From NCBI GenBank assembly GCA_027310725.1, contig DAIDAG010000044.1:1-64000 (forward strand): a stretch of DNA of 64,000 bases. The letters are read 5' to 3'. Below are positions 16,900-29,312 of the stretch, one piece after another. The notes below the pieces were generated by a model. The model made no database searches. It was not told where the DNA came from and saw only the letters and a list, made by a program, of their open reading frames with translations. Position numbers and translations under genes: made by a program. Within the stretch, counting starts at the first letter, position 1. Every line of letters begins with the position of its first letter. This DNA is from Sideroxydans sp. (GTDB lineage: Bacteria > Pseudomonadota > Gammaproteobacteria > Burkholderiales > Gallionellaceae).

Positions 16900-17835
16900 A
16901 TGCTGGAATTTTCGGACATGAAAAATAAACCCACTCCCTCGGATATCAGCACGTTGTTCAATAATGACGATCCCAAGGTCGTTTGGAAGAAGGCGACCGA
17001 TATTGTCCGGCGCATGAGTCCGGCTTACGATTTTACGCTTGCACAATCCGTTTACCGGGACGTCATGGCTTTGTTCCGTGGCGAATATCCCGGTTACAGT
17101 CCCATCAAGACTCTGTATCACGACCTGCCCCATACGCTGGAAGTATTTCTGTGCGGTGTGAGATTGATGCACGGCGTCCATGTGTCGGGTGATCCCCTGC
17201 AGGATGACGAGATCACGTTGATCATGTTGGCGATCATGATGCATGACGTGGGTTATGCGCAGCGCAAAGGGGAAGAGAGCGGGACGGGGGCGCAGTACAC
17301 GCAAACGCATGTAGGGCGCGGTATTGAATTCATGAGGCAATACTTTGCCGAGCACAAGCTTTCTGTGGCGATGGCGGATGCCTTGACTGGAATGATCATG
17401 GGAACGGAGCACAACCGGCCGTTTGCGCGAATCGATTTCAGCAATGAAAGGTCGCGTATGCTGGCTCGTATCGTCGCCACTGCCGATATCACCGGACAGA
17501 TGGCAGACCGCATCTATCTGGAAAAACTGTTGTTCCTTTACCTGGAATTCAAGGAGGCCAATTTCGGCAGCTATCAGAGCATGTACGACCTTTTGTGCCA
17601 GACCAACCGTTTTTACGAAATGACCCGTGAAAAACTGGACAGTGCGCTCGGAGGCATCTACAAGAAACTGGAATTTCACTTCAAAGACACGATGGGTGTC
17701 GATCAGAATTATTACTTGCTGGCCATCGAGAAGAACATGGCCTATCTAAACAAGGTTGTCACCAACGATCAGGCTGAACAACTTACGATGCTCAAACGGA
17801 ATGGCGTCGTCGAAAAATCGCTAAAGCTTGCATAG
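16900..17835 (+). CDS. HD-domain phosphohydrolase-like protein
   Basis: 311 residues with an HD metal-dependent phosphohydrolase core. The first histidines lie in YHDLPHTLEV, the HD pair in MMHDVGYAQ, and a later His in GTEHNRPFARIDF. The HDxxH/HD arrangement and helical content resemble 3',5'-cyclic nucleotide phosphodiesterases, so a role in cyclic nucleotide turnover is plausible. Not an HD-GYP protein. No signal peptide. An ATG at 16918 (MKNKPTPS) is an alternative start. It precedes the cytochrome locus by 180 bp, but an AT-rich promoter region in between suggests separate transcription. Confidence 0.75.
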   Translation: MLEFSDMKNKPTPSDISTLFNNDDPKVVWKKATDIVRRMSPAYDFTLAQSVYRDVMALFRGEYPGYSPIKTLYHDLPHTLEVFLCGVRLMHGVHVSGDPLQDDEITLIMLAIMMHDVGYAQRKGEESGTGAQYTQTHVGRGIEFMRQYFAEHKLSVAMADALTGMIMGTEHNRPFARIDFSNERSRMLARIVATADITGQMADRIYLEKLLFLYLEFKEANFGSYQSMYDLLCQTNRFYEMTREKLDSALGGIYKKLEFHFKDTMGVDQNYYLLAIEKNMAYLNKVVTNDQAEQLTMLKRNGVVEKSLKLA

Positions 17836-17930
17836 TGAATTGTATTTACGCTGGTATCGGGAATTGATCCCCAAGTTCCGGGCAATCTGGAGCGTTTCAT
17901 CTGCTGTATCCAAATACACGACAAATTTAT

Positions 17931-17957
17931 TTGTGAATTTATATTTATGCTTATAAT
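17931..17957 (+). promoter_or_regulatory. Candidate promoter of the porin-cytochrome operon
   Basis: A perfect TATAAT lies at 17952-17957 in a strongly AT-rich stretch (17915-18000) 76 bases before the first gene. TTGTGA (17931-17936) is a possible -35 element with a short 15-bp spacer. A consensus TTGACA at 17970-17975 lacks a matching -10. The region is unlike the GC-rich surroundings. Confidence 0.4.
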
Positions 17958-18032
17958 GTTGACGTAATTTTGACAAATATGACTATTTTAAGTCACTGAG
18001 CCCTGACCTGGGCGCTATTGAATATTCAGAGA

Positions 18033-18947
18033 ATGCCAATGACAACATTAGCCGCATCTCAGCCGCCTTTTGACAGGCGCAAGCAGCAAAGACAAAAGGA
18101 CCAGCCCAAAGACTATGGCTGGACACTATATTTGATAGTGGTCACCTTGTTGATGTTCGCGGGATATTTCGTTTCCTATGACCACCTGTACAAGCCCGGC
18201 GACAATATCGGCTACAACATAGGTCTGGCTGGCGGGATCATGATGTTGACTCTCCTGATCTATCCGCTGCGCAAACGGGTGGGCTTCATGAAAAACTGGA
18301 GTGTCCTGCCCAAGTGGTTCAAATGGCATATGGTTTTCGGCATACTCGGACCGGCCCTCATTATTTTTCATTCCACGTTTTATATCGCCTCGGTCAATGC
18401 GGGTGTGGCCATGGCATGCATGTTGTTGGTATCGGGCAGCGGAATATTCGGGCGCTTTTTCTATACAAAGATCCATAACGGACTTTACGGCCGGCAATCC
18501 TCATTTCAACAGTTGCAGGGCGACCTGGAAGGATCCGGGGACGTGAAATCCGTTCTCAGTTTCGCTCCCGAAATCGAGAAAAAGCTCGAAGATTTCCGCG
18601 ATCAGGTGCTGTCGTCCTCGAAGGCGGGAAAACTCAACGGATGGAATTTCATTTCTTTGGGCTTCAGGATCAAGTGGTTTTCCCGAACCCTGATCAGGGA
18701 ATTGGAAGACGCCATGTACGCGGATGCCAATGCGAAGCAATGGAACGAAGCGCAGATGAAGCGTCTCGACGAGCTTTTTTACCAGAACGAAAAATTCATC
18801 CGGACCTATCTTGTCGCCGTACGTGACCTGGCGCAATTCTCAACCTACGAGAAACTGTTTTCCTTATGGCATATATTCCATGTGCCCTTGGTTTACATGC
18901 TGGTATTCAGTGCGATCTGGCACGTTATTTCGGTTCACAAATATTAG
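18033..18947 (+). CDS. Predicted di-heme b-type membrane cytochrome of the porin-cytochrome locus
   Basis: 304 residues (starts at TTG 18018 or ATG 18039 are also possible; CAGAGA precedes the latter). Five hydrophobic helices lie at about 30-48, 59-77, 100-120, 123-142 and 282-300, with a long charged segment between helices 4 and 5. Helix 3 carries His99 and His113 (H-x13-H) and helix 5 carries His283 and His297 (H-x13-H). This is the spacing with which cytochrome b of the bc1 complex holds two haems. That makes it a likely quinone-facing b cytochrome passing electrons to the periplasmic c-type cytochrome 15 bp downstream. I do not recognise a named family; the haem assignment is an inference. 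Confidence 0.7.
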   Translation: MPMTTLAASQPPFDRRKQQRQKDQPKDYGWTLYLIVVTLLMFAGYFVSYDHLYKPGDNIGYNIGLAGGIMMLTLLIYPLRKRVGFMKNWSVLPKWFKWHMVFGILGPALIIFHSTFYIASVNAGVAMACMLLVSGSGIFGRFFYTKIHNGLYGRQSSFQQLQGDLEGSGDVKSVLSFAPEIEKKLEDFRDQVLSSSKAGKLNGWNFISLGFRIKWFSRTLIRELEDAMYADANAKQWNEAQMKRLDELFYQNEKFIRTYLVAVRDLAQFSTYEKLFSLWHIFHVPLVYMLVFSAIWHVISVHKY

Positions 18948-18962
18948 AAGGTCAACCGTCGC

Positions 18963-20738
18963 ATGAAATCGGCATTCATCAAGGTGTGCTCGCTGGCTTT
19001 CCTGGTCTTTTCGATCCATGCACATGCCGATTCTGCAAATGATCTGTTGATGCCCGGCCAGGTGATACAGGGGCATGTCAAATACGAGAGCGAATGCAGC
19101 AATTGCCACAAACCTTACGACAAGGCTGCCCAAGCGGGATTGTGCAAAGACTGTCACAAGGAGATCGCGAAAGACATAGCTGACAAAAATGGTTTCCACG
19201 GCCTGATGAAGGAAGAGCACCCATGCAAGGAGTGCCACACCGAACACAAGGGACGAGACGCACGCATTGCAAAACTGAACACGGTCAACTTTGACCACTT
19301 GACTACCGGTTTTGAATTGAAGGGTGCGCACTTGAGCAGCAAAGTCCTGTGCAAGGATTGCCACTCCCCGCAAAAGAAATACCGGCAAGCGCCCGTCAAA
19401 TGCATCGGTTGTCACGAAAAGGCGGATAAACACAAAGGTTCCCTGGGGCCGGAATGCCAGAACTGCCACGAGGAAAAAGATTGGAAAACGACCCATTTCG
19501 ACCACAGCAAAACCCATTTCCCATTGCTGGGCAAACATGCGGATGTGAAGTGCAAGGATTGCCATCCAGACAACAAGTTCAAGAACACTCCGCTTCAATG
19601 CAACGAGTGTCATAAAAAGGACGACAAGCACAAGGGGCACTTCGGACCCAAGTGTGAAACTTGCCATAACGAAAAGAGCTGGAAAGAAATCCTGTTCGAC
19701 CATGACAAGAAAACCAAATATCCGCTGCTCGGAAAGCATCGTGAAACAAAATGCGTCAGCTGTCACAAGGGAGATCTTTATAAGGAAAAACTGAAGACCG
19801 ACTGTGTTTCATGCCATCAAAAGGACGACAAGCACAAGGGCAAGTTCGGGCCGAAATGCGAGTCCTGTCATATCGAGCGCAGCTGGAAGGAAATCCCGTT
19901 CGATCATGACAGGAAGACCAAATTCCCGTTGCTTGGAAAGCATCGCGATGTGAAGTGCAACGATTGCCACAAGGGAGACTTGTATAAGGACAAGCTCAAG
20001 ATGGACTGCAATTCTTGCCACCAGAAAGACGACAAGCACAAGGGCAATTTCGGACCCAAGTGTGAAACTTGCCATAACGCAACGAGCTGGAAAGAAATCA
20101 TATTCGACCATGACAAGAAGACCGATTACCCGCTGCTCGGCAAGCACCGCGACACGAAATGCGTCAGTTGCCACAAGGGCGACCTGTACAAGGACAAGCT
20201 GAAGACATCCTGTTCCTCATGCCACGACAAAGACGACAAACATAAAGGCGAGGAAGGGAAAAAATGCGAATCCTGCCATCATGAGGATTCGTGGGAAAAG
20301 GCTGAATTTGACCACAGGATCTCGCGCTTCCAGCTTACCGGCCAGCACATATTGGCCCAATGCAAAAAGTGTCATCTGACGGTGGTATTTAAGGAGGCGA
20401 AGTCGGATTGCGCGTCTTGCCATGCGAAGCAAGACGTGCACAAACGTACCCTCGGCACTGCTTGCGAAACTTGCCACAACACTCGCGACTGGAAGAACTG
20501 GGATTTCGACCACGACAAGACCAATTTCAAACTTGACGGGAAGCACAAGGGACTCAAGTGTATCGATTGTCACAATACCCCGGTAAGCAATAAAGTGGTC
20601 TTGGCGGCAACCTGTGTCAGTTGCCATGAGAAAGACGACAAGCACAACGGCGATTTTGGAAACCAGTGCGATCACTGCCATGTCGGGCTGAACTGGAAAT
20701 CGATCAAGGTAGGGAGCCGGCGCTGGATAAACCATTGA
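18963..20738 (+). CDS. 24-heme periplasmic c-type cytochrome made of tandem tri-heme modules
   Basis: 591 residues: signal peptide 1-22 (ending IHAHA), three N-terminal CXXCH motifs, then seven tandem modules of 66-69 residues starting near residues 110, 179, 245, 313, 381, 449 and 515. Each module has three CXXCH motifs plus three conserved extra histidines (F-D-H, G-K/Q/A-H, D-K/V-H), enough for bis-His ligation of every haem. The total by eye is 24 CXXCH. The mature protein is very rich in Lys, Asp and His and has no lipobox, so a soluble periplasmic electron carrier is likely. AAGGT precedes the ATG. The arrangement matches the periplasmic cytochrome of the predicted PCC3 locus of iron oxidisers (recalled, not checked). 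Confidence 0.92.
   Translation: MKSAFIKVCSLAFLVFSIHAHADSANDLLMPGQVIQGHVKYESECSNCHKPYDKAAQAGLCKDCHKEIAKDIADKNGFHGLMKEEHPCKECHTEHKGRDARIAKLNTVNFDHLTTGFELKGAHLSSKVLCKDCHSPQKKYRQAPVKCIGCHEKADKHKGSLGPECQNCHEEKDWKTTHFDHSKTHFPLLGKHADVKCKDCHPDNKFKNTPLQCNECHKKDDKHKGHFGPKCETCHNEKSWKEILFDHDKKTKYPLLGKHRETKCVSCHKGDLYKEKLKTDCVSCHQKDDKHKGKFGPKCESCHIERSWKEIPFDHDRKTKFPLLGKHRDVKCNDCHKGDLYKDKLKMDCNSCHQKDDKHKGNFGPKCETCHNATSWKEIIFDHDKKTDYPLLGKHRDTKCVSCHKGDLYKDKLKTSCSSCHDKDDKHKGEEGKKCESCHHEDSWEKAEFDHRISRFQLTGQHILAQCKKCHLTVVFKEAKSDCASCHAKQDVHKRTLGTACETCHNTRDWKNWDFDHDKTNFKLDGKHKGLKCIDCHNTPVSNKVVLAATCVSCHEKDDKHNGDFGNQCDHCHVGLNWKSIKVGSRRWINH
19290..20708 (+). repeat. Seven in-frame tandem ~200-bp repeats in the 24-heme cytochrome gene
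   Basis: Units of about 198-207 bp encode the tri-heme module. Units 3-5 (residues 245-448) are the most alike, for example sharing KGDLYK(D/E)KLK and KDDKHKG, and they are also close at DNA level. The outer units have diverged, which suggests recent duplication in the middle of the array. Confidence 0.85.
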
Positions 20739-20843
20739 CGTTGATAACGGACCATTGCCGTTCGTCAGCCGGCTTTACCGTTCATGCTTTTGTCTCGCAA
20801 CCGATGAGCGGCCGAATGAAATTGCGGACACATACTACAATTG

Positions 20844-20872
20844 TTGACAGGTAAAAGTGCAGAAGCTATTCA
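20844..20872 (+). promoter_or_regulatory. Possible internal promoter before the 29-motif cytochrome gene
   Basis: A perfect TTGACA (20844-20849), a 17-bp spacer and TATTCA (20867-20872, 3 of 6) lie in the 183-bp gap between the two cytochrome genes. The -10 is poor, so this is a weak call. Confidence 0.3.
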
Positions 20873-20921
20873 CTGTTCGTAAATTAAATATGGATCGAAA
20901 ATTTGCAGCGAGGTGCCGATT

Positions 20922-23783
20922 ATGGATACGCCAACAACAAGTAACGTGATTGCCAGGATGCTGGTGGCTTTGATGTTCAGCTTTTCATTCTTCGCGACTG
21001 CAGCACAGGCGGTCACAGTCGAAAACTCTTTCGACCACTCGAAAACAGGATTTGTGCTCAGGGAAGTTCACGCAACGTTGAAATGCGAACAATGCCACGT
21101 CGACGGAATATTCAAGAACACTCCCAAGGACTGCGCAGGCTGCCACAACACCGGAACGAGAGTCGCCGCCCTTCCCAAACCGATAAACCATATACCCACA
21201 ACCTTTTCGTGTGACACCTGCCATATCAGCGCAGCCAGCTTCCTGATAAAAAGCTTCAGCCATGTCACCATAACCGGTCAATGCGCGACTTGCCACAATG
21301 GACAGTCGCTGGGTGTCGTGAGCAAACCGGCGAATCATTTCCCGACCCAGCAGCCGTGCGAGTACTGCCACAAAAATACCAGCACTTTCCTGAGCTACCA
21401 GGTCGATCACGTGGCGAATGGTTATGTCGGCAACTGTTTCCAATGCCACGGCGGTCCGGCAGGTGAACCCGGCCCGATCGGTACTTATCCCAACGTGGTC
21501 AGTTACAACGCTGCGACCCATTTCCCCTTGACATCCTTCGGCACGACTCCGCCGGACTGCAATGCCTGCCATACGGGCTACTCTACGTTCCTGGGAGCGA
21601 CTTTTGCGCATACACCGGGTTCCACCTGTACTTCCTGCCATCAGGGGCAATATGCCGGTGTGGTCTCGATCAATCGTTCGATACATATTCCGCTGCCGAC
21701 CGGGTCTACATGCGCCAGTTGCCATCCGGATCCCACGACGCAGGTACTCCCGACATTCCTGGGAGTGGCGTTCCACACAACCAGTATCGGTAATCCTCCT
21801 GCGGGCACTTGTGCGACCTGCCATAACGGCAGCTTTGTCTCGCAGAACGCCCAAACCAAAGGTGTAACCCATATACCGACTACTGCAGATTGCGGGACAT
21901 GTCATACCGGACCGAGCGGAACACCTGCCAACTCGACCTTGAACTACACAACCTTCCTGGACGCAAAATTCCACCAGACTACTTTGGGAAATCCCCCGAC
22001 TGTTACATGCTCCACCTGCCATAGCGGGGGCTATGTATCCGAAGGTGCGCAAACCAAGATTGCGGGCCATGTGATGACGACGTCGGATTGCGGCACATGC
22101 CACACCGCTTCGAATACCGCAACTTACACGACGTTCCTGGGCGCTACCTTCTCACACGTACCGGGAGTTTATGCATCGTTCCCCGGAGATGGATCGATTG
22201 CCACGCCGACCTGTTCGTCCTGTCACAATGGATCTACCGCTACCGGCAAGGTTGCTGGCCACATTGTGACAACGGCGGATTGCAATAGCAGCGGCTGCCA
22301 CAGTTCGACTTCTCCCAATACGACGGGATGTCCCAATTGCGTGAGTTTTACCGGCGTCATTTTCAACCATATCAATTCAACCACGGGATATACCTCGTTC
22401 GGCACGACCGCACCGTCACCGTACACCAAGCGTTGCGATAGCTGTCATAACGGAACAACGTTGCTGGCGCAGCCCGTTAGTGCGGGGCATATACCGACTT
22501 CAGGAGCGGATTGCGTTACGTGCCACACCCCGGCCAGCACAGGTTGTGCAAATGGCGGAAATTGCGCGACGTTCCTGAACGCGACACTTAACCACAGCAT
22601 CGTTGCAGCCGGATCTTGTGGAACTTGCCACCAGGGACAATATGCCGGTGTGGTCTCGATTAATCCCGCTATCCATATCCCGCAATCATCCGGGAATGCA
22701 TGCGATGTATGCCATACAAATGCGATTACCAATCTGCTCACGGCATTTCCCGCCAACCCGACATTCCTGAATGTGGTGTTCCACAAGACTTCACTGGGAA
22801 ATCCGCCAACAGGTTTGTGCTCGAACTGCCATTCCGGGACTTACGTCTCGCAAAATGCTCAGTCCGAAAGCAGTGTGATCACAAACCATGTGGCGACGAC
22901 GGCCGATTGCGTGACCTGCCATACCGCAACGAACACCGCCAATTACACTTCGTTCCTGGGGGCCGGCTTTACCCACTCGCCCGGAACCTATGCATCCTGG
23001 CCACCTGCGCAGCCGCCAACGCCGACCTGTGCGTCCTGCCACAATGGCGCGACAGCGACGGGTAAGAATGCCGGCCATCCGGTCACGGCTCTGGATTGCA
23101 TGTCATGCCACACTACGACTGTTCTACAGGGGTGTCCGACTTGTACACTTTTCGGAATACCGGCGGGAGTAATACACAACACCGCGCCATACAACACGCC
23201 CGGTACCTGCGTGACATGTCATAACGGCACGACTGCGATCGGGCTTTCCTCAGACACCGGACATATCCCGATCGGATCCGCGGGATGCGACCAATGCCAC
23301 TCGGTATATGACGGAGTCGGTTCCATCAACTTCAGCACGGCGGCCGTGTCTTCGATCTCCGTGAGTGGCGTGACGATGTACGGGATGAAGCATTCGGCTG
23401 TGACAGGGCGCTGCGACAGTTGTCACAACGGCTCTTATACCGGTCAGGGATTGTTTGGTGCTGTAACCAAGGTATCCAACCACATCCCGACGACGATCAT
23501 CAGCACTTCTGCCAACACGGACTGCACCAGTTGCCACTCGACGACGATCAATATCACGTCAGGGGCCGCAGACTGGGCAACCGGCGAGAGAATGAACCAC
23601 AATAATGCGATGGGCGGAGCGCCGAATTACTGCGTGACATGCCATCTTTCGGGTGTCACTTATTTCGAGCCAAATGCGCAAAAGCTCAGCCACAATGGGG
23701 CAAGCACATCCAAGGATTGTTCAAGTTCAAGCTGTCATAAACCGCTGGGCACCAAAGGGACTGCGTATTCGTCGTGGGATTGA
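20922..23783 (+). CDS. Giant multiheme c-type cytochrome, 27 CXXCH plus 2 CX4CH motifs, predicted surface-exposed
   Basis: 953 residues with a signal peptide (ALMFSFSFFATAAQA). By eye there are 27 CXXCH motifs and two CX4CH motifs (CNSSGCH and, near the C-terminus, CSSSSCH). Recurrent elements such as (T/S)FLGAxFxH, TCxSCHNG and GHIPT..DC.(T/S)CH show internal duplication. The body is rich in Thr, Ser, Gly and Pro and poor in Lys, in strong contrast to the periplasmic partner, which suits an exposed outer-surface protein. Only the first 50 mature residues (FDHSKTGF, then CEQCHVDGIFKNTP) resemble the partner's module. The ATG at 20922 is chosen for GAGGTG 6 bases upstream; a GTG at 20913 is also in frame. 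No lipobox. Probably the terminal reductase/oxidase of the conduit. Confidence 0.88.
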   Translation: MDTPTTSNVIARMLVALMFSFSFFATAAQAVTVENSFDHSKTGFVLREVHATLKCEQCHVDGIFKNTPKDCAGCHNTGTRVAALPKPINHIPTTFSCDTCHISAASFLIKSFSHVTITGQCATCHNGQSLGVVSKPANHFPTQQPCEYCHKNTSTFLSYQVDHVANGYVGNCFQCHGGPAGEPGPIGTYPNVVSYNAATHFPLTSFGTTPPDCNACHTGYSTFLGATFAHTPGSTCTSCHQGQYAGVVSINRSIHIPLPTGSTCASCHPDPTTQVLPTFLGVAFHTTSIGNPPAGTCATCHNGSFVSQNAQTKGVTHIPTTADCGTCHTGPSGTPANSTLNYTTFLDAKFHQTTLGNPPTVTCSTCHSGGYVSEGAQTKIAGHVMTTSDCGTCHTASNTATYTTFLGATFSHVPGVYASFPGDGSIATPTCSSCHNGSTATGKVAGHIVTTADCNSSGCHSSTSPNTTGCPNCVSFTGVIFNHINSTTGYTSFGTTAPSPYTKRCDSCHNGTTLLAQPVSAGHIPTSGADCVTCHTPASTGCANGGNCATFLNATLNHSIVAAGSCGTCHQGQYAGVVSINPAIHIPQSSGNACDVCHTNAITNLLTAFPANPTFLNVVFHKTSLGNPPTGLCSNCHSGTYVSQNAQSESSVITNHVATTADCVTCHTATNTANYTSFLGAGFTHSPGTYASWPPAQPPTPTCASCHNGATATGKNAGHPVTALDCMSCHTTTVLQGCPTCTLFGIPAGVIHNTAPYNTPGTCVTCHNGTTAIGLSSDTGHIPIGSAGCDQCHSVYDGVGSINFSTAAVSSISVSGVTMYGMKHSAVTGRCDSCHNGSYTGQGLFGAVTKVSNHIPTTIISTSANTDCTSCHSTTINITSGAADWATGERMNHNNAMGGAPNYCVTCHLSGVTYFEPNAQKLSHNGASTSKDCSSSSCHKPLGTKGTAYSSWD

Positions 23784-23807
23784 TTTGTTAATTGGCAAAC
23801 TTATGGT

Positions 23808-23836
23808 CCAAGCCGGCTTCAGCGAAGCCGGCTTGG
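23808..23836 (+). terminator. 13-bp perfect hairpin between the surface cytochrome and porin genes
   Basis: CCAAGCCGGCTTC (23808-23820) and GAAGCCGGCTTGG (23824-23836) pair perfectly around a 3-base loop, followed by ATGTTTTG. The T-run is short, so it may act as a partial terminator/attenuator or an mRNA-stabilising element rather than a full stop. The porin ATG is only 27 bases further on. Confidence 0.55.
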
Positions 23837-23863
23837 ATGTTTTGAAATCGAGCGGCACTAATC

Positions 23864-26395
23864 ATGTTCCGAATTAAATTGCATCGTCTGGCCTTGTCAT
23901 TTTTTGCGGTGATCCTGCTGGATATCGTGTCGCCTTATGCGTCTGCCGAGATCATCGATGACATCACCGTCCATCAGGATGCAAGCGGGGGGACGGATAC
24001 GGTAATCAAATTCACTGTCCCGATCCAATATCTCCGACATTTCCCCCAAGGCAAATCAAGTTCCACTTCGATCTATTTCAATATCCTTAATACCGTTCCC
24101 ATTGATGAATGGCAGGACTACGAATCGCACCGGACTCCTCCCTCCGACCTTGTTCAGGAGATCATGGTAACCACGCGTGACCGCGGTACCGGACCCAAGA
24201 TTCATATCACGTTCTATCGCCCTGCAGAATTCACCGTCGCAATGGGAGGCGACAATCAGACTTTGGTGATTCATGCCAAACCGGTCACGGCCCAACAAAA
24301 TAACGAAAGCAAACCGGCCCCGGGACAGTCCATTGTCATTCCGGTGCCAGTTGCAGCAGCACCGATCGCCGTTATCGCGGCTACTCCAAAATCCCCTCCG
24401 GTATCCGCGCCCTCTGCGGCAACTCCGGCGGTATCTGTCGCCAAGGAAATGCCGCCGGCACCAGCGCCGGCCACTGTTTCAGCGCCTGTGGCAGCATCTG
24501 CACCCGTCCCAGCGACAGCACCTGTTGCACCCTCTGGCGATATCACTGCGCCCAAAATAGTGCTGAAGCCTTCTTCATCGAAACCCATTCATATCCCGCT
24601 GGGTGGAAAAGACGGGCTCCCGCCCTTTCCCGAAATAGACCAGTACGTCCCGCAAGGAACAACGCCAGCGCCTGCAAACGCATCTCTGACCGACAAGATC
24701 GTGATTGCGAACAATCAGGCAGCCGCATTGATGGAAAATGGTGGAAATGCGCTTCTGACCGGCCAGACATTTGCCGCAATTGACTCGTTCAATCAAGTAC
24801 TCAATCTGCCTCCGAACAAATATACGGAAGACGCCCAATTATGGGTCGGGATCGCAAAGGAAAGATCGGGGCAATTATCCAAAGCCATCCTGGAATTCAA
24901 TTCCTATTTGAGACTTTACCCGGACGGAAAGTCTGCGAAATGGGTCAAGGACAGGCTCGCCAAGCTGAAATTATCCCAGCCGGCGCTTTTCGCTACCTTG
25001 GATAAACAATCCACCGCCCCAGCCAGAGCGCAAAACACCGAATTCCAGTATTCGGAATTCGGCAGTTTGTCGATGTATTACTATCAGGGGGCGAGTCAGA
25101 CCAACACCGTGGCGAGTGCAGGCGCCGTCCAGACGCCGACGAATTTTTCGCTCGTTGACCAGAAATCCCTGATAACGAATCTCAACATGACTGCAAGGTC
25201 ATACAACAACGAATATGACAATCGTCTGGTATTCCAGGACTTCTATGCAGCGAACTTTCTCCCGGGGCAACAAAACATTTCCATGCTGGGGGCAGCATAT
25301 TATGAAATGAGAGACCGGATCGTCGATTATTCGTTCAGGGTGGGTCGACAGTCGGGATTGGGAGGCGGGGTGATGGGCAGATTTGACGGCGTTTCCGCCG
25401 GTTATGGATTTGTCCCGAATTGGAGAGTGAATGTCGTGGCAGGCCAGTTGTCCGATTTCACCATTGACAGCAAACCCACCTTTTACGGAGCCAGTGTGGA
25501 TTTCGGTACCAAGAGCCAGCTGGGCGGCTCTGTTTACGGGATCACCCAACAGGTCAACGGCTTTACCGACCGAAGGGCAGTGGGCGGGAACCTGAGATAT
25601 TTTGACCAGAGATTCAACATCATGTCCATGGTGGACTACGACGTACTGTTCAAGGCGGTGAATATCTTTACAGTGCAAGGGACTTTGAATGGCGGAGGAA
25701 GCGGTACGGACTACAACTTCCTTCTGGATCGCCGCAGAAGCCCGGTCCTGGATATCAGGAATGCGATCAACGGCACCACTTCGACGATCGCAACCCTGAT
25801 GCAAAACGGTTGGTCCATGAGCGACCTGATCCTGTTGGCTGACCAGCGCACGACAGTTTCAAGCATGGCGCAAGTCGGCATGACCAATCACATGAGCGAG
25901 AAATGGTTCATCGGCACCGACTTCACCATTGCAAAGACGGCAGGTATGACTGCCAGTGGAACGCTACTGCCGGACGGAACCACCGGAGTGGAAGGGTTTG
26001 TACCTACGATCCCTTCCACGGGCAATACCTGGACGATCACCGAAAGAGCGACCGGACTGGGAGTTATCCGTCCGCAAGACACGACGAACTTCAGCGTGAG
26101 TTACTCCAGAGGCGCGCTGATCACTGCGGAAGGATTTCAGGCCAGCAACCACGTCGATCTGCAAGAAAAATGGACGCTTGACTCCACCTTCTTTCTGAAT
26201 CTCCAAAACGACAACACCGGCGGGAAAATGCACGATATCTCGCCAACGATCAGAGTGGCATACAAAATAAGAAGGAACCTGTCTGCGGACACGCAATTGG
26301 GTCTTGATTGGAACAAGACGTCGTCCAGCGTATTGCAATCCACTTCGACCGCATTGCGGGAATTTTTTGCGTTCGGCTTCCGCCTGGATTTCTGA
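23864..26395 (+). CDS. Large outer membrane porin of the porin-cytochrome conduit
   Basis: 843 residues. Signal peptide (to SPYASA); then a beta-rich N-terminal domain (about 28-145, IIDDITVHQDASGG onward) resembling AMIN-type domains; a Pro/Ala/Val linker (about 150-235); and a helical TPR-like segment (about 280-375, with NNQAAALMENGGNALLTGQ and AILEFNSYLRLYPDG). The remainder, from about residue 385, is amphipathic beta barrel ending in FGFRLDF, with the terminal Phe needed for outer membrane assembly. It follows the two multiheme cytochromes, so it is the likely sheath through which they make contact. It is not an evident MtrB/MtoB homologue: the N-terminal extension differs. Last gene of the locus. 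Confidence 0.82.
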   Translation: MFRIKLHRLALSFFAVILLDIVSPYASAEIIDDITVHQDASGGTDTVIKFTVPIQYLRHFPQGKSSSTSIYFNILNTVPIDEWQDYESHRTPPSDLVQEIMVTTRDRGTGPKIHITFYRPAEFTVAMGGDNQTLVIHAKPVTAQQNNESKPAPGQSIVIPVPVAAAPIAVIAATPKSPPVSAPSAATPAVSVAKEMPPAPAPATVSAPVAASAPVPATAPVAPSGDITAPKIVLKPSSSKPIHIPLGGKDGLPPFPEIDQYVPQGTTPAPANASLTDKIVIANNQAAALMENGGNALLTGQTFAAIDSFNQVLNLPPNKYTEDAQLWVGIAKERSGQLSKAILEFNSYLRLYPDGKSAKWVKDRLAKLKLSQPALFATLDKQSTAPARAQNTEFQYSEFGSLSMYYYQGASQTNTVASAGAVQTPTNFSLVDQKSLITNLNMTARSYNNEYDNRLVFQDFYAANFLPGQQNISMLGAAYYEMRDRIVDYSFRVGRQSGLGGGVMGRFDGVSAGYGFVPNWRVNVVAGQLSDFTIDSKPTFYGASVDFGTKSQLGGSVYGITQQVNGFTDRRAVGGNLRYFDQRFNIMSMVDYDVLFKAVNIFTVQGTLNGGGSGTDYNFLLDRRRSPVLDIRNAINGTTSTIATLMQNGWSMSDLILLADQRTTVSSMAQVGMTNHMSEKWFIGTDFTIAKTAGMTASGTLLPDGTTGVEGFVPTIPSTGNTWTITERATGLGVIRPQDTTNFSVSYSRGALITAEGFQASNHVDLQEKWTLDSTFFLNLQNDNTGGKMHDISPTIRVAYKIRRNLSADTQLGLDWNKTSSSVLQSTSTALREFFAFGFRLDF

Positions 26396-26433
26396 CGGGA
26401 TCCCGAAAACAGCCCCGTCCGGGCCAAGTCCGC

Positions 26434-27483
26434 TCAGGCCACCGTCACTGCCTTATCCAGATACACATCCTGAATCGCATTCAACAACGCCACGCCGTCC
26501 TGCATCGGCTTCTGGAACGCCTTGCGGCCCGAGATCAGCCCCATGCCGCCGGCACGCTTGTTGATGACTGCAGTGCGTACCGCTTGCTGCAGGTCGTTCT
26601 TCCCCGACTCGCCGCCGGAGTTGATCAGGCCTGCACGTCCCATATAGCAGTTCGCCACCTGATAGCGCACCAGGTCGATCGGGTGGTCGGTGGTCAGTTC
26701 GCTGTAGACCTTGGGGTGAGTCTTGCCGAATTTGATGGCGTTGTAGCCGCCGTTGTTCTCGGCCATCTTCTGCTTCACGATGTCGGCGTTGATGGTGACG
26801 GCAAGATGGTTGGCCTGTCCGGTAAGGTCGGCCGCGACGTGGAAATCCTTGTCCGCAGTCTTGAATGCCGGGTTGCGCAGATAGGCCCACAGGATGGTCG
26901 CCATGCCGAGTTCGTGCGCGTGCTCGAAGGCATCCGAGATTTCCTGTATCTGCCGGCGCGAATGCTCCGAGCCGAAGAATATCGTCGCACCGACTGCCAC
27001 GGCGCCCATGTCGAACGCCTGATCCACGCTGGCAAACAGGGTCTGGTCATAGATGTTGGGATAGGTCAGCATCTCGTTGTGGTTGATCTTCACCACGAAA
27101 GGAATCTTGTGCGCATAGCGGCGCGCCACCGAACCCAGCACACCCAGTGTGGAAGCGACCCCGTTGCAGCCGCCCTCGATGGCGAGCTTGACGATATTCT
27201 CGGGGTCGAAATAGATCGGATTGGGCGCGAACGATGCGCCGCCGGAATGCTCCACGCCCTGGTCCACCGGCAACAGGGAGAGATAGCCGGTATTGGCCAG
27301 CCGCCCTTGTCCGTACAAGGCCTGCAAACTGCGCAGGACGCCGGTCTTGCGGTCTTTCATGGCCACGACCCGATCCACATAATCCGGCCCCGGCAGGTGC
27401 AGCGTTTCTTTCGGTATCCCGGCACAGCGATGCTTCAACAGGTGTTCCGCTTCTTCGCCCAGCAATTGCTCGATGTTCGTCAT
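26434..27483 (-). CDS. fbaB: Class I fructose-bisphosphate aldolase (DhnA type)
   Basis: 349-residue Schiff-base aldolase of the archaeal/DhnA type, interconverting fructose-1,6-bisphosphate with glyceraldehyde-3-phosphate and dihydroxyacetone phosphate. Recognised from [32 protein letters not shown] and the phosphate-binding NSGGESG and [11 protein letters not shown] near the C-terminus. GGGAG lies before the ATG at 27483. It stands alone, convergent with the porin gene 38 bp away. In an autotroph it would serve gluconeogenesis and the Calvin cycle. Confidence 0.9.
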
Positions 27484-27881: not shown

Positions 27882-29312
27882 TTGACCTTGGCCGGCTGCG
27901 GGGGCGGCGGTGCGTCAGCACCGCCTGTCACGTTGAGCAGCATTGCCATCAGCCCGGATCCTGTTTATATCGGGGCAGGCACGACGCTCCAACTTGCAGC
28001 GACAGGAGCATATTCGAACGGGACCACCGCAGACCTGACTTCCAGTGTTACTTGGATGTCCGCCAACTCGTCGATTGCCAGTGTAGGAGCAACTGGTTTG
28101 GTTACATTGGGAACGGCTGCTACAGTCCCTTCCACTACGAGCATTAGCGCAACGTTTAACGGGGTGACTTCACCACCAGTAATTCTTACAGTCACACTTG
28201 CAGGCTCCAGTTCGACGAATGGGCTGCTTACACCTCGTTACGATCATACGGCCACGCTGCTGCACGACGGAACAGTATTGGTGGCGGGCGGGTACAACAC
28301 GGTTGCTCTGGCCAGTGCCGAGTTGTACACCCCGGGCTCGACGACGAGCACCGGGACGTGGACAGCAGCCGCAAATATGGCCGTGGGGCGTCGTGACCAT
28401 ACCGCCACACTGTTATCTACGGGCCATGTGCTGCTGATTGGAGGAGGGACGGCGTCGGGTGATCTCACCAGCGGTGAAATGTACACGCCTGTTTCGGGAG
28501 TCACGCCGGCAAGTTGGACAGCTTACCCCGGCATGCTTACACAAACGCGTTCTTACCATACCGCTACCCTGCTCAACAATTCCGCCAACTTGACAGCTAA
28601 CGGCAAGGAATTGGTACTGGTGGTTGGTGGAGGCCTGGCAAGTACGGCAGATCTGGTCGATCCATCCAGCCCCCCGGGGACTCGTGCAACGTCAGTACCC
28701 GACATTTGGCCACGGTACTCGCACACGGCCACTCTGTTGAATGACGGCACCGTGTTGGTCACGGGAGGATTTGATACTGCTTCTGCCAGTGTGCTTGCTC
28801 AAGCCGAGTTGTTCGCGCCAACCGGTGCCTCGGTCGTTGCCACCAGCCCTCTTACAACGCCGCGCTATTTGCACAGTGCCACACTATTGGCCAATGGCCC
28901 TGCATCTACCAACGGAAAAGTGCTGGTGGTGGGCGGTATAGACGCCATGGGTAACATTCTCGCCGGTGCCGAACTGTACGACCCTGTTGCCGGAACATGG
29001 AGTCCAACCGGCAGCCTTGCAGTCCCGCGCTTTGGCCACATCGCCACGCTGATGACTAGCGGTCCGAATATAGGCAAAGTCCTCGTGATGGGAGGCAGGA
29101 ATGCCAGCAATCCAACCCTGTCCAGCGCCGAGTTGTACGACCCAGGTACCGGGACATGGAGTGCAACGGCCAATCTGCAAAAGGGGCGCGCCGTGTTCAG
29201 TGCCACCTTGCTAAGCACAGGGCCTGATGCCGGCAGCGTTCTTGTGGTTGGGGGGGAAGGGACAGTCAACGGCAACTATGTCGTGCTCCCGGATGTCGAG
29301 CTGCATAATTAA
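27882..29312 (+). CDS. Ig-like/kelch-repeat lipoprotein with out-of-frame signal peptide
   Basis: As read, the frame opens only at TTG 27882, just before the lipobox LAGC, leaving no signal peptide. The codons upstream in this frame (to 27795) encode a good one but lack a start codon. An ATG at 27805 is one base out of frame; adding one T to the T6 run at 27820-27825 would join MRTSKFF to a 32-residue lipoprotein signal ending LTLAGC. The mature protein has a BIG2-like Ig domain (about 12-105) and then six or seven kelch-type repeats with R-x-x-HTATLL, VLVVGG and AELYxP motifs, forming a probable beta-propeller. It is likely an outer membrane-anchored, surface or periplasmic binding protein. 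Whether it is phase-variable, broken or a sequencing error cannot be told here. Confidence 0.75.
   Translation: MTLAGCGGGGASAPPVTLSSIAISPDPVYIGAGTTLQLAATGAYSNGTTADLTSSVTWMSANSSIASVGATGLVTLGTAATVPSTTSISATFNGVTSPPVILTVTLAGSSSTNGLLTPRYDHTATLLHDGTVLVAGGYNTVALASAELYTPGSTTSTGTWTAAANMAVGRRDHTATLLSTGHVLLIGGGTASGDLTSGEMYTPVSGVTPASWTAYPGMLTQTRSYHTATLLNNSANLTANGKELVLVVGGGLASTADLVDPSSPPGTRATSVPDIWPRYSHTATLLNDGTVLVTGGFDTASASVLAQAELFAPTGASVVATSPLTTPRYLHSATLLANGPASTNGKVLVVGGIDAMGNILAGAELYDPVAGTWSPTGSLAVPRFGHIATLMTSGPNIGKVLVMGGRNASNPTLSSAELYDPGTGTWSATANLQKGRAVFSATLLSTGPDAGSVLVVGGEGTVNGNYVVLPDVELHN

Follow-up and report, generated by a model that had tools for sequence, protein, structure and literature searches.

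For many systems of extracellular electron transfer, it is not settled how an electron crosses the periplasm, a gap of about 20 nm. The DNA analysed here, a stretch of 64,000 nucleotides from Sideroxydans sp. (contig DAIDAG010000044.1, positions 1 to 64,000; "the window"), contains four genes that bear on this question. The four are intact open reading frames, all on the + strand at 18018-26395, and encode in this order an inner-membrane protein (IMP), a periplasmic multihaem cytochrome (pMHC), a second multihaem cytochrome of the outside type (eMHC) and a porin. An earlier note on this DNA had placed the four genes here in a row and had assigned them to the PCC3 systems; the row and the assignment both held, and the order is kept in relatives. 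Taken as a whole, the locus is likely to be a complete PCC3 electron conduit of the form set out below. This kind of locus was already known; what is new is its anatomy across relatives (a rule of three haems in the pMHC, an arm on the porin and a module at the start of the eMHC), which was not found described in the literature searched.

PCC3 was named by He et al. in 2017 (PMC5566968; papers are cited here and below for part of their contents) as a set of a porin, outside and periplasmic many-haem cytochromes and a five-helix inner-membrane protein of about 300 amino acids (aa), in which helices 3 and 5 carry WX3HX13H and helix 4 carries SGXXG. The published median haem numbers are 34 for the outside and 21 for the periplasmic cytochrome (PMC5566968), and complete predicted PCC3 was reported in 26 Gallionellaceae genomes (PMC10734462). 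The window locus agrees with this description in gene set and order, IMP motifs, haem numbers, eMHC composition (by eye) and a barrel unlike MtrB, and the 53 c-type haem sites of one protein set bear out the expectation of more than 50. By its sequence, the locus is a complete and ordinary PCC3 member.

Comparison with reference systems turned up a near twin, the PCC3 cluster Slit_1446-1449 of Sideroxydans lithotrophicus ES-1, with the same gene order, a five-helix IMP of about 300 aa and a 24-haem pMHC. A sampled genome, G050, which we take to be ES-1 because it has two PCC3 loci and three adjacent Cyc2-like genes, is 81, 86, 68 and 64% identical to the window over IMP, pMHC, eMHC and porin, and its eMHC has 28 CXXCH and one CX4CH motif against 27 and two in the window. 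The two ES-1 PCC3 clusters have 17/21 and 24/28 haems (PMC8788666). With MtrCAB and MtoAB, the locus shares the plan of a barrel, a periplasmic and an outside cytochrome, and its eMHC matches the Pfam model of MtrC/MtrF domain II/IV. It differs from them in having a 24-haem polymer of c7 modules instead of a decahaem periplasmic cytochrome, an eMHC without a lipobox and an inner-membrane partner in its own operon. Neither Pfam nor NCBIfam, both of which presumably contain such models, gave an MtrB/PioB-type match for the porin (E ≤ 0.1). Cyc2 is a monohaem cytochrome fused to a porin, whereas the window porin has no CXXCH. It could still be asked whether in this organism the PCC3 genes are relics that have decayed or fallen out of use, since they are known here only as sequence, from a 3.03-Mb draft of 80 contigs that is 65% complete; with all four frames open, and 86-96% protein identity to the nearest relative (L059) in the three genes downstream of IMP, this is highly improbable.

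The set of genes also holds together among relatives. In the window's family, Gallionellaceae, 65 of 150 sampled genomes have IMP homologues (in four of them the only matches are weak and partial, E 1e-4 to 6e-4), and an alignment search (E ≤ 1e-15) gave 17 of 300 sampled genomes for the order, 44 of 369 for the class and 8 of 398 for the phylum, each of the four tallies counting the window's own genome. The nearest named locus lies in a Sideroxydans sp. metagenome assembly, with an IMP 94% identical. For synteny, 126 loci (L057-L096, L109-L188 and L050-L055) were picked for an IMP hit; they are not all of the hits, exclude the window locus and include some paralogues or near-copies, and the co-occurrence figures are conditional on IMP. 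Eleven had too little downstream sequence, which left 115 to be judged. A multihaem gene lies directly 3' of IMP in 110 of these, the remaining five being three IMPs without cytochromes, one with a cytochrome 3.8 kb off and one with porin frames only. Where the downstream sequence exceeds 9 kb (78 loci), a second multihaem gene is present in 76 cases and a porin in 75. Scattering of the four genes among relatives, an outcome that the earlier note had considered, was thus not what was found.

At the inner membrane, the five-helix protein foreseen from the sequence is upheld by five hydrophobic stretches that coincide with the helices of an AlphaFold2 (AF2) model. It carries WX3HX13H in both places (on transmembrane helices TM3 and TM5) and SGXXG on TM4. 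Histidines H97, H111, H281 and H295 (numbered from the ATG at 18039) are conserved in all of the 124 IMPs that are 240 aa or longer, H146 in 119 and H278 in 116. The four invariant histidines make the IMP a probable di-haem b protein that would exchange electrons with the quinone pool, an idea that originates with He et al. (PMC5566968). The quinone-to-surface path of the earlier note is no more than plausible, given the invariance of these histidines; no fold match of the IMP is significant.

Besides the copy in the PCC3 operon, the window genome has two further IMP copies. A second PCC3-like locus of this genome (L057, C29:1-4121) shows at least 18 pMHC haem motifs before the end of its 4.1-kb contig. 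Cytochrome-free loci also exist: at L058 (C10:77817-78707, again in the window genome), L071 and L083, the IMP homologue keeps the seven histidines of the window IMP. Behind the homologue at L058 stand two U32-peptidase genes and then an SCP2 gene (Pfam), and the genes behind IMP at L071 match them in length (343, 301 and 150 aa). This arrangement is the pattern of UbiU/UbiV/UbiT in anaerobic ubiquinone synthesis, and it hints at a quinone-linked role for the IMP.

The pMHC gave the clearest regularity. In the window it has 24 CXXCH motifs, as had been counted in the earlier note, with a haem spacing of 17-18-33 that recurs beyond chance and with Cytochrome_C7 as its best Pfam family. Across relatives the spacing is nearly fixed, beginning 16, 27, 42, continuing in units of about 17, 18, 33 and ending in about 33, 18, 18. 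Haem numbers follow the triplets: 51 of 110 complete pMHCs have 24, 46 have 21, ten have 27 and two have 18, which accounts for 109, the exception being L081, whose gene is broken into two frames with 10 and 12 motifs. The downstream cytochromes of the same loci (106 genes, including the second half of L081's split pMHC) left remainders of 0, 1 and 2 on division of the haem number by three in 49, 29 and 28 cases. In a smaller earlier set, 100 of 102 pMHCs fitted, with L081 and L138 as exceptions; L138 belongs to the eleven short loci, and its 25 motifs are read as 24 because the first lies upstream of the signal peptide. Also among the eleven were L085 (24 haems), L134 (24), L159 (21) and L167 (18), while L056, a near-copy of L050 outside the counted set, has a pMHC frame with seven motifs in 226 aa. 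On a quick tree of 100 IMPs, in which 39 of the 97 inner branches are unresolved, L081 is left out and L138 is scored as 24, parsimony gave 23 changes of haem number with every state a whole triplet; starred (well-supported) branches force no fewer than 10 changes of the 24-haem state.

The triplet rule might, with no constraint on length, be a mutational by-product of recombination between the 204-bp in-frame repeats, and a tandem repeat of this unit is indeed present in the window pMHC. Recombination of this kind would produce the steps of three, but it would not alone produce the narrow range of six to nine modules: only the split gene falls outside 18-27 haems (n = 110), whereas the eMHC of paired loci ranges from 10 to 68. 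Over the 82 loci in which both proteins are complete, the coefficient of variation of haem number is 8.9% for pMHC and 59% for eMHC. A Spearman correlation between the two (-0.24, p 0.03) was weak, came from related rows and was not used. We give the by-product explanation rather less than an even chance.

The pMHC is a modular polymer, and it may well cross the periplasm. With about 8 Å per haem, as in cytochrome filaments, the 24-haem form would be about 190 Å long, near the width of the periplasm. In Geobacter, the c7-polymer nanowire cytochromes (GSU1996-like) likewise have three-haem c7 modules in a row; the pMHC differs in that its gene stands together with those of a porin and a membrane protein, and in its six to nine modules. 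A periplasmic span was already suggested in PMC5566968 and PMC10734462, and He et al. described pMHC repeats, each containing one or more haem sites (PMC5566968). The main text of PMC5566968 contains neither "triheme" nor "multiples of", and the main text of PMC10734462 uses "triheme" for the Uet proteins.

The porin proved to be more than the 843-residue barrel that had been proposed. The length is right and there is a barrel, yet the AF2 model places its strands only at residues 395-842 (about 450 residues), and these are preceded by a beta domain, a disordered linker and TPR-like helices. In Foldseek searches of the PDB, the model found generic outer-membrane porins (best E 1.1e-9, low TM-scores), and solved relatives sought by sequence gave nothing better than E 0.095. 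BcsC-like exporters, at Foldseek rank 37, also have periplasmic TPR helices followed by a barrel, but the TM-score is low (0.26 by target), no sequence kinship is shown and the cargo is different.

Profiles of the parts of this arm were built from 36 porins and run on the porins of loci L109-L188, outside the training set. A barrel-only profile recovered 58 porins, with the TPR-like part in 57 and the beta domain in 46; for the 27 class-level relatives among them, the numbers are 26 and 16. The sole porin without the TPR-like part, that of L187, is a broken frame of 396 aa. An earlier full-length profile, with the arm included, had given 57/57 and 46/57. SPOR, a peptidoglycan-binding domain, scored above the Pfam cut-off in two of eight porins, both titled gammaproteobacterial, and in eight of ten long-armed porins of class-level relatives, these ten hand-picked by eye from fourteen; Pfam found no SPOR in the window porin. 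The arm is a concrete candidate for attachment to the cell wall. Neither PMC5566968 nor PMC10734462 has AMIN, TPR or peptidoglycan as a whole word in its main text, and the search of the available literature collection returned no paper linking porin-cytochrome with SPOR, or combining multiheme, peptidoglycan-binding, TPR, porin and two further terms.

The eMHC was said in the earlier note to have 29 motifs, a number that stands when the two CX4CH motifs are added to the 27 of the CXXCH type. No solved relative was found for it by sequence at E ≤ 0.01. A profile of the pMHC module finds its best position before residue 130 in 84 of 91 eMHC frames of relatives. An eMHC frame at L155 has at least 108 haem motifs (100 CXXCH, 8 CX4CH) and is cut off by the end of its contig; in 2017, the largest number known to He et al. 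was 85 (PMC5566968). At L079, L127, L130 and L074, the locus has two outside-type cytochrome genes, 5' or 3' of the porin.

These parts can be joined into one conduit. The IMP would exchange electrons with the quinone pool, and the pMHC, with its eight three-haem modules, would be a wire that crosses the periplasm. The porin would sit in the outer membrane as a barrel, while its arm of beta domain, linker and TPR-like helices would hold the wire in the periplasm and probably touch the cell wall. Electrons would be handed over at the first, pMHC-type module of the eMHC, seen in relatives and presumed to lie in or under the barrel, and the rest of the eMHC would extend outside as an antenna of variable length. 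More tentatively, and as something we hold to be possible rather than probable, PCC3 could be a wall-anchored conduit with a periplasmic ruler, in which a pMHC of six to nine modules is one rigid bridge from IMP to barrel, the arm is fixed to peptidoglycan and the eMHC is docked in the barrel by its first module, with the remainder a free antenna. Should the three-haem rule mirror the distance to be spanned, PCC3 would be a natural bridge made of one molecule; its length could be set by adding or deleting whole modules, and the ruler idea would thereby be open to test.

Several results weigh against this conduit. Both the wire length and the placement of the eMHC module are ones that we infer, and PCC3 function is treated in PMC12442390 as predicted and not biochemically demonstrated. 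The porin model is weak (pLDDT 65.7, pTM 0.42), and hhalign of its beta domain against the AMIN profiles of AmiC and PilQ, a likeness seen by eye, was not significant, though the AmiC-PilQ positive control failed as well. In the AF2 model of the IMP (pTM 0.64), H111 sits just beyond the end of helix 3; a fold search with this model against the PDB gave no match at E ≤ 0.001, a result that neither backs nor overturns the di-haem b idea, Pfam had no match for the window IMP, and the cytochrome b561 family of Pfam gave weak matches in only 2 of 19 IMPs. A lipobox-like pattern in 13 of 91 eMHCs means that some may be lipid-anchored; as the number is just 13, most eMHCs are probably held by the porin. 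The ES-1 expression data below belong on the same side. Separately, a search of PDB sequences with the IMP profile returned just two receptor fusions (E 0.007 and 0.05), judged to be chance.

On the substrate and direction of the conduit, the earlier note's "probably for Fe(II) oxidation" finds no support in the publications consulted, and Fe(II) is no more than a possibility. That the conduit is a dedicated Fe(II) oxidase system we regard as doubtful. It would suit a locus whose nearest named counterpart is from Sideroxydans sp. and whose IMP has homologues in the family as counted above. A Cyc2-like protein of G050, so named for its position and its haem motif at the N terminus, is matched in each of the four other congeners tested. 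No Cyc2 match was found in the 65%-complete window genome, however, nor an MtoA-type match over the cut-off, the latter in a search that had no positive control; at this completeness, the two negatives carry little weight. IMP homologues extend to the class-level and phylum-level genomes counted above. In CL21, the IMP of PCC3 copy 2 was significantly up when cells could oxidise iron, and PCC3 was expressed with or without iron oxidation, like cyc2 and mtoA (PMC12442390). Against the Fe(II) reading, downregulation with Fe(II) was reported for the two PCC3 clusters of ES-1 (PMC8788666), and proteome data for ES-1 with magnetite give 0 for the twin's eMHC in each of the columns shown, with its porin and IMP at middle percentiles and its pMHC lower (PMC12016527).

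An outward or two-way conduit, serving as an electron sink or capacitor toward, for example, oxides, humics or partner cells, is also rather unlikely. The MtrC/MtrF domain II/IV match of the eMHC is to a family known from outward transfer, but a haem-domain match carries no information on direction. The 53 c-type haem sites would suit storage, an idea also put forward in PMC10734462, and the ES-1 PCC3 genes were higher with thiosulfate than with Fe(II) (PMC8788666).

Table 1. Features of the PCC3 locus in the window (positions are those of the window).
Feature	Position	Strand	Remarks
IMP, inner-membrane protein	18039..18947	+	likelier ATG start by inspection; version from TTG 18018 is 309 aa
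pMHC, periplasmic cytochrome, 591 aa	18963..20738	+	24 CXXCH; eight three-haem c7-type modules
Tandem repeat in pMHC, 204-bp unit, 3.1 copies	19615..20239		equals the central three-haem modules
eMHC, Thr/Ser/Ala/Gly-rich cytochrome	20922..23783	+	27 CXXCH + 2 CX4CH; version from GTG 20913 is 956 aa
Strong hairpin in eMHC-porin gap	23807..23837	+	possible attenuator or mRNA stabiliser
PCC3 porin, 843 aa	23864..26395	+	AF2 model, Foldseek
Porin residues 31-140, N-terminal beta domain	23954..24283	+	AF2 model; AMIN-like by eye only
Porin residues 143-270, Pro/Ala-rich disordered linker	24290..24673	+	SPOR in the matching stretch of several distant relatives
Porin residues 275-379, TPR/YfiO-like helices	24686..25000	+	AF2 model, profiles across relatives
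Porin residues 395-842, outer-membrane barrel	25046..26389	+	about 21 predicted strands; AF2 model, Foldseek

The coordinates are collected in Table 1. For the eMHC, the ATG is the likelier start, with GAGG preceding it, and the intergenic gaps are 15 bp (IMP-pMHC), 174 bp (pMHC-eMHC, counted to the GTG) and 80 bp (eMHC-porin). Behind the stop codon of the eMHC, 34 of 78 loci have a strong hairpin (shuffled sequences, 0.8%), with stems that differ in sequence, against 3 of 78 in the pMHC-eMHC gap (1.9% in shuffles), the threshold having been chosen after the first hairpin results had been inspected; the eMHC-porin hairpin is possibly an intra-operon attenuator. Promoter and terminator pattern counts at the locus were at shuffle level, an Rfam scan of 17500-27000 gave no match, and PHROGs had none for IMP or porin.

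Outside the operon, an HD-domain protein gene lies 5' of it, at 16900-17835, and holds the same place in six sister loci (L059, L061-L065). On the 3' side, a convergent gene for a class I fructose-bisphosphate aldolase follows the porin. A Kelch and Big_2 domain protein is encoded at 27882-29312; it had no match in a fourth near relative, is present at the same position in three others with 71-92% identity, and has further partial matches on contig C24 of its own genome.

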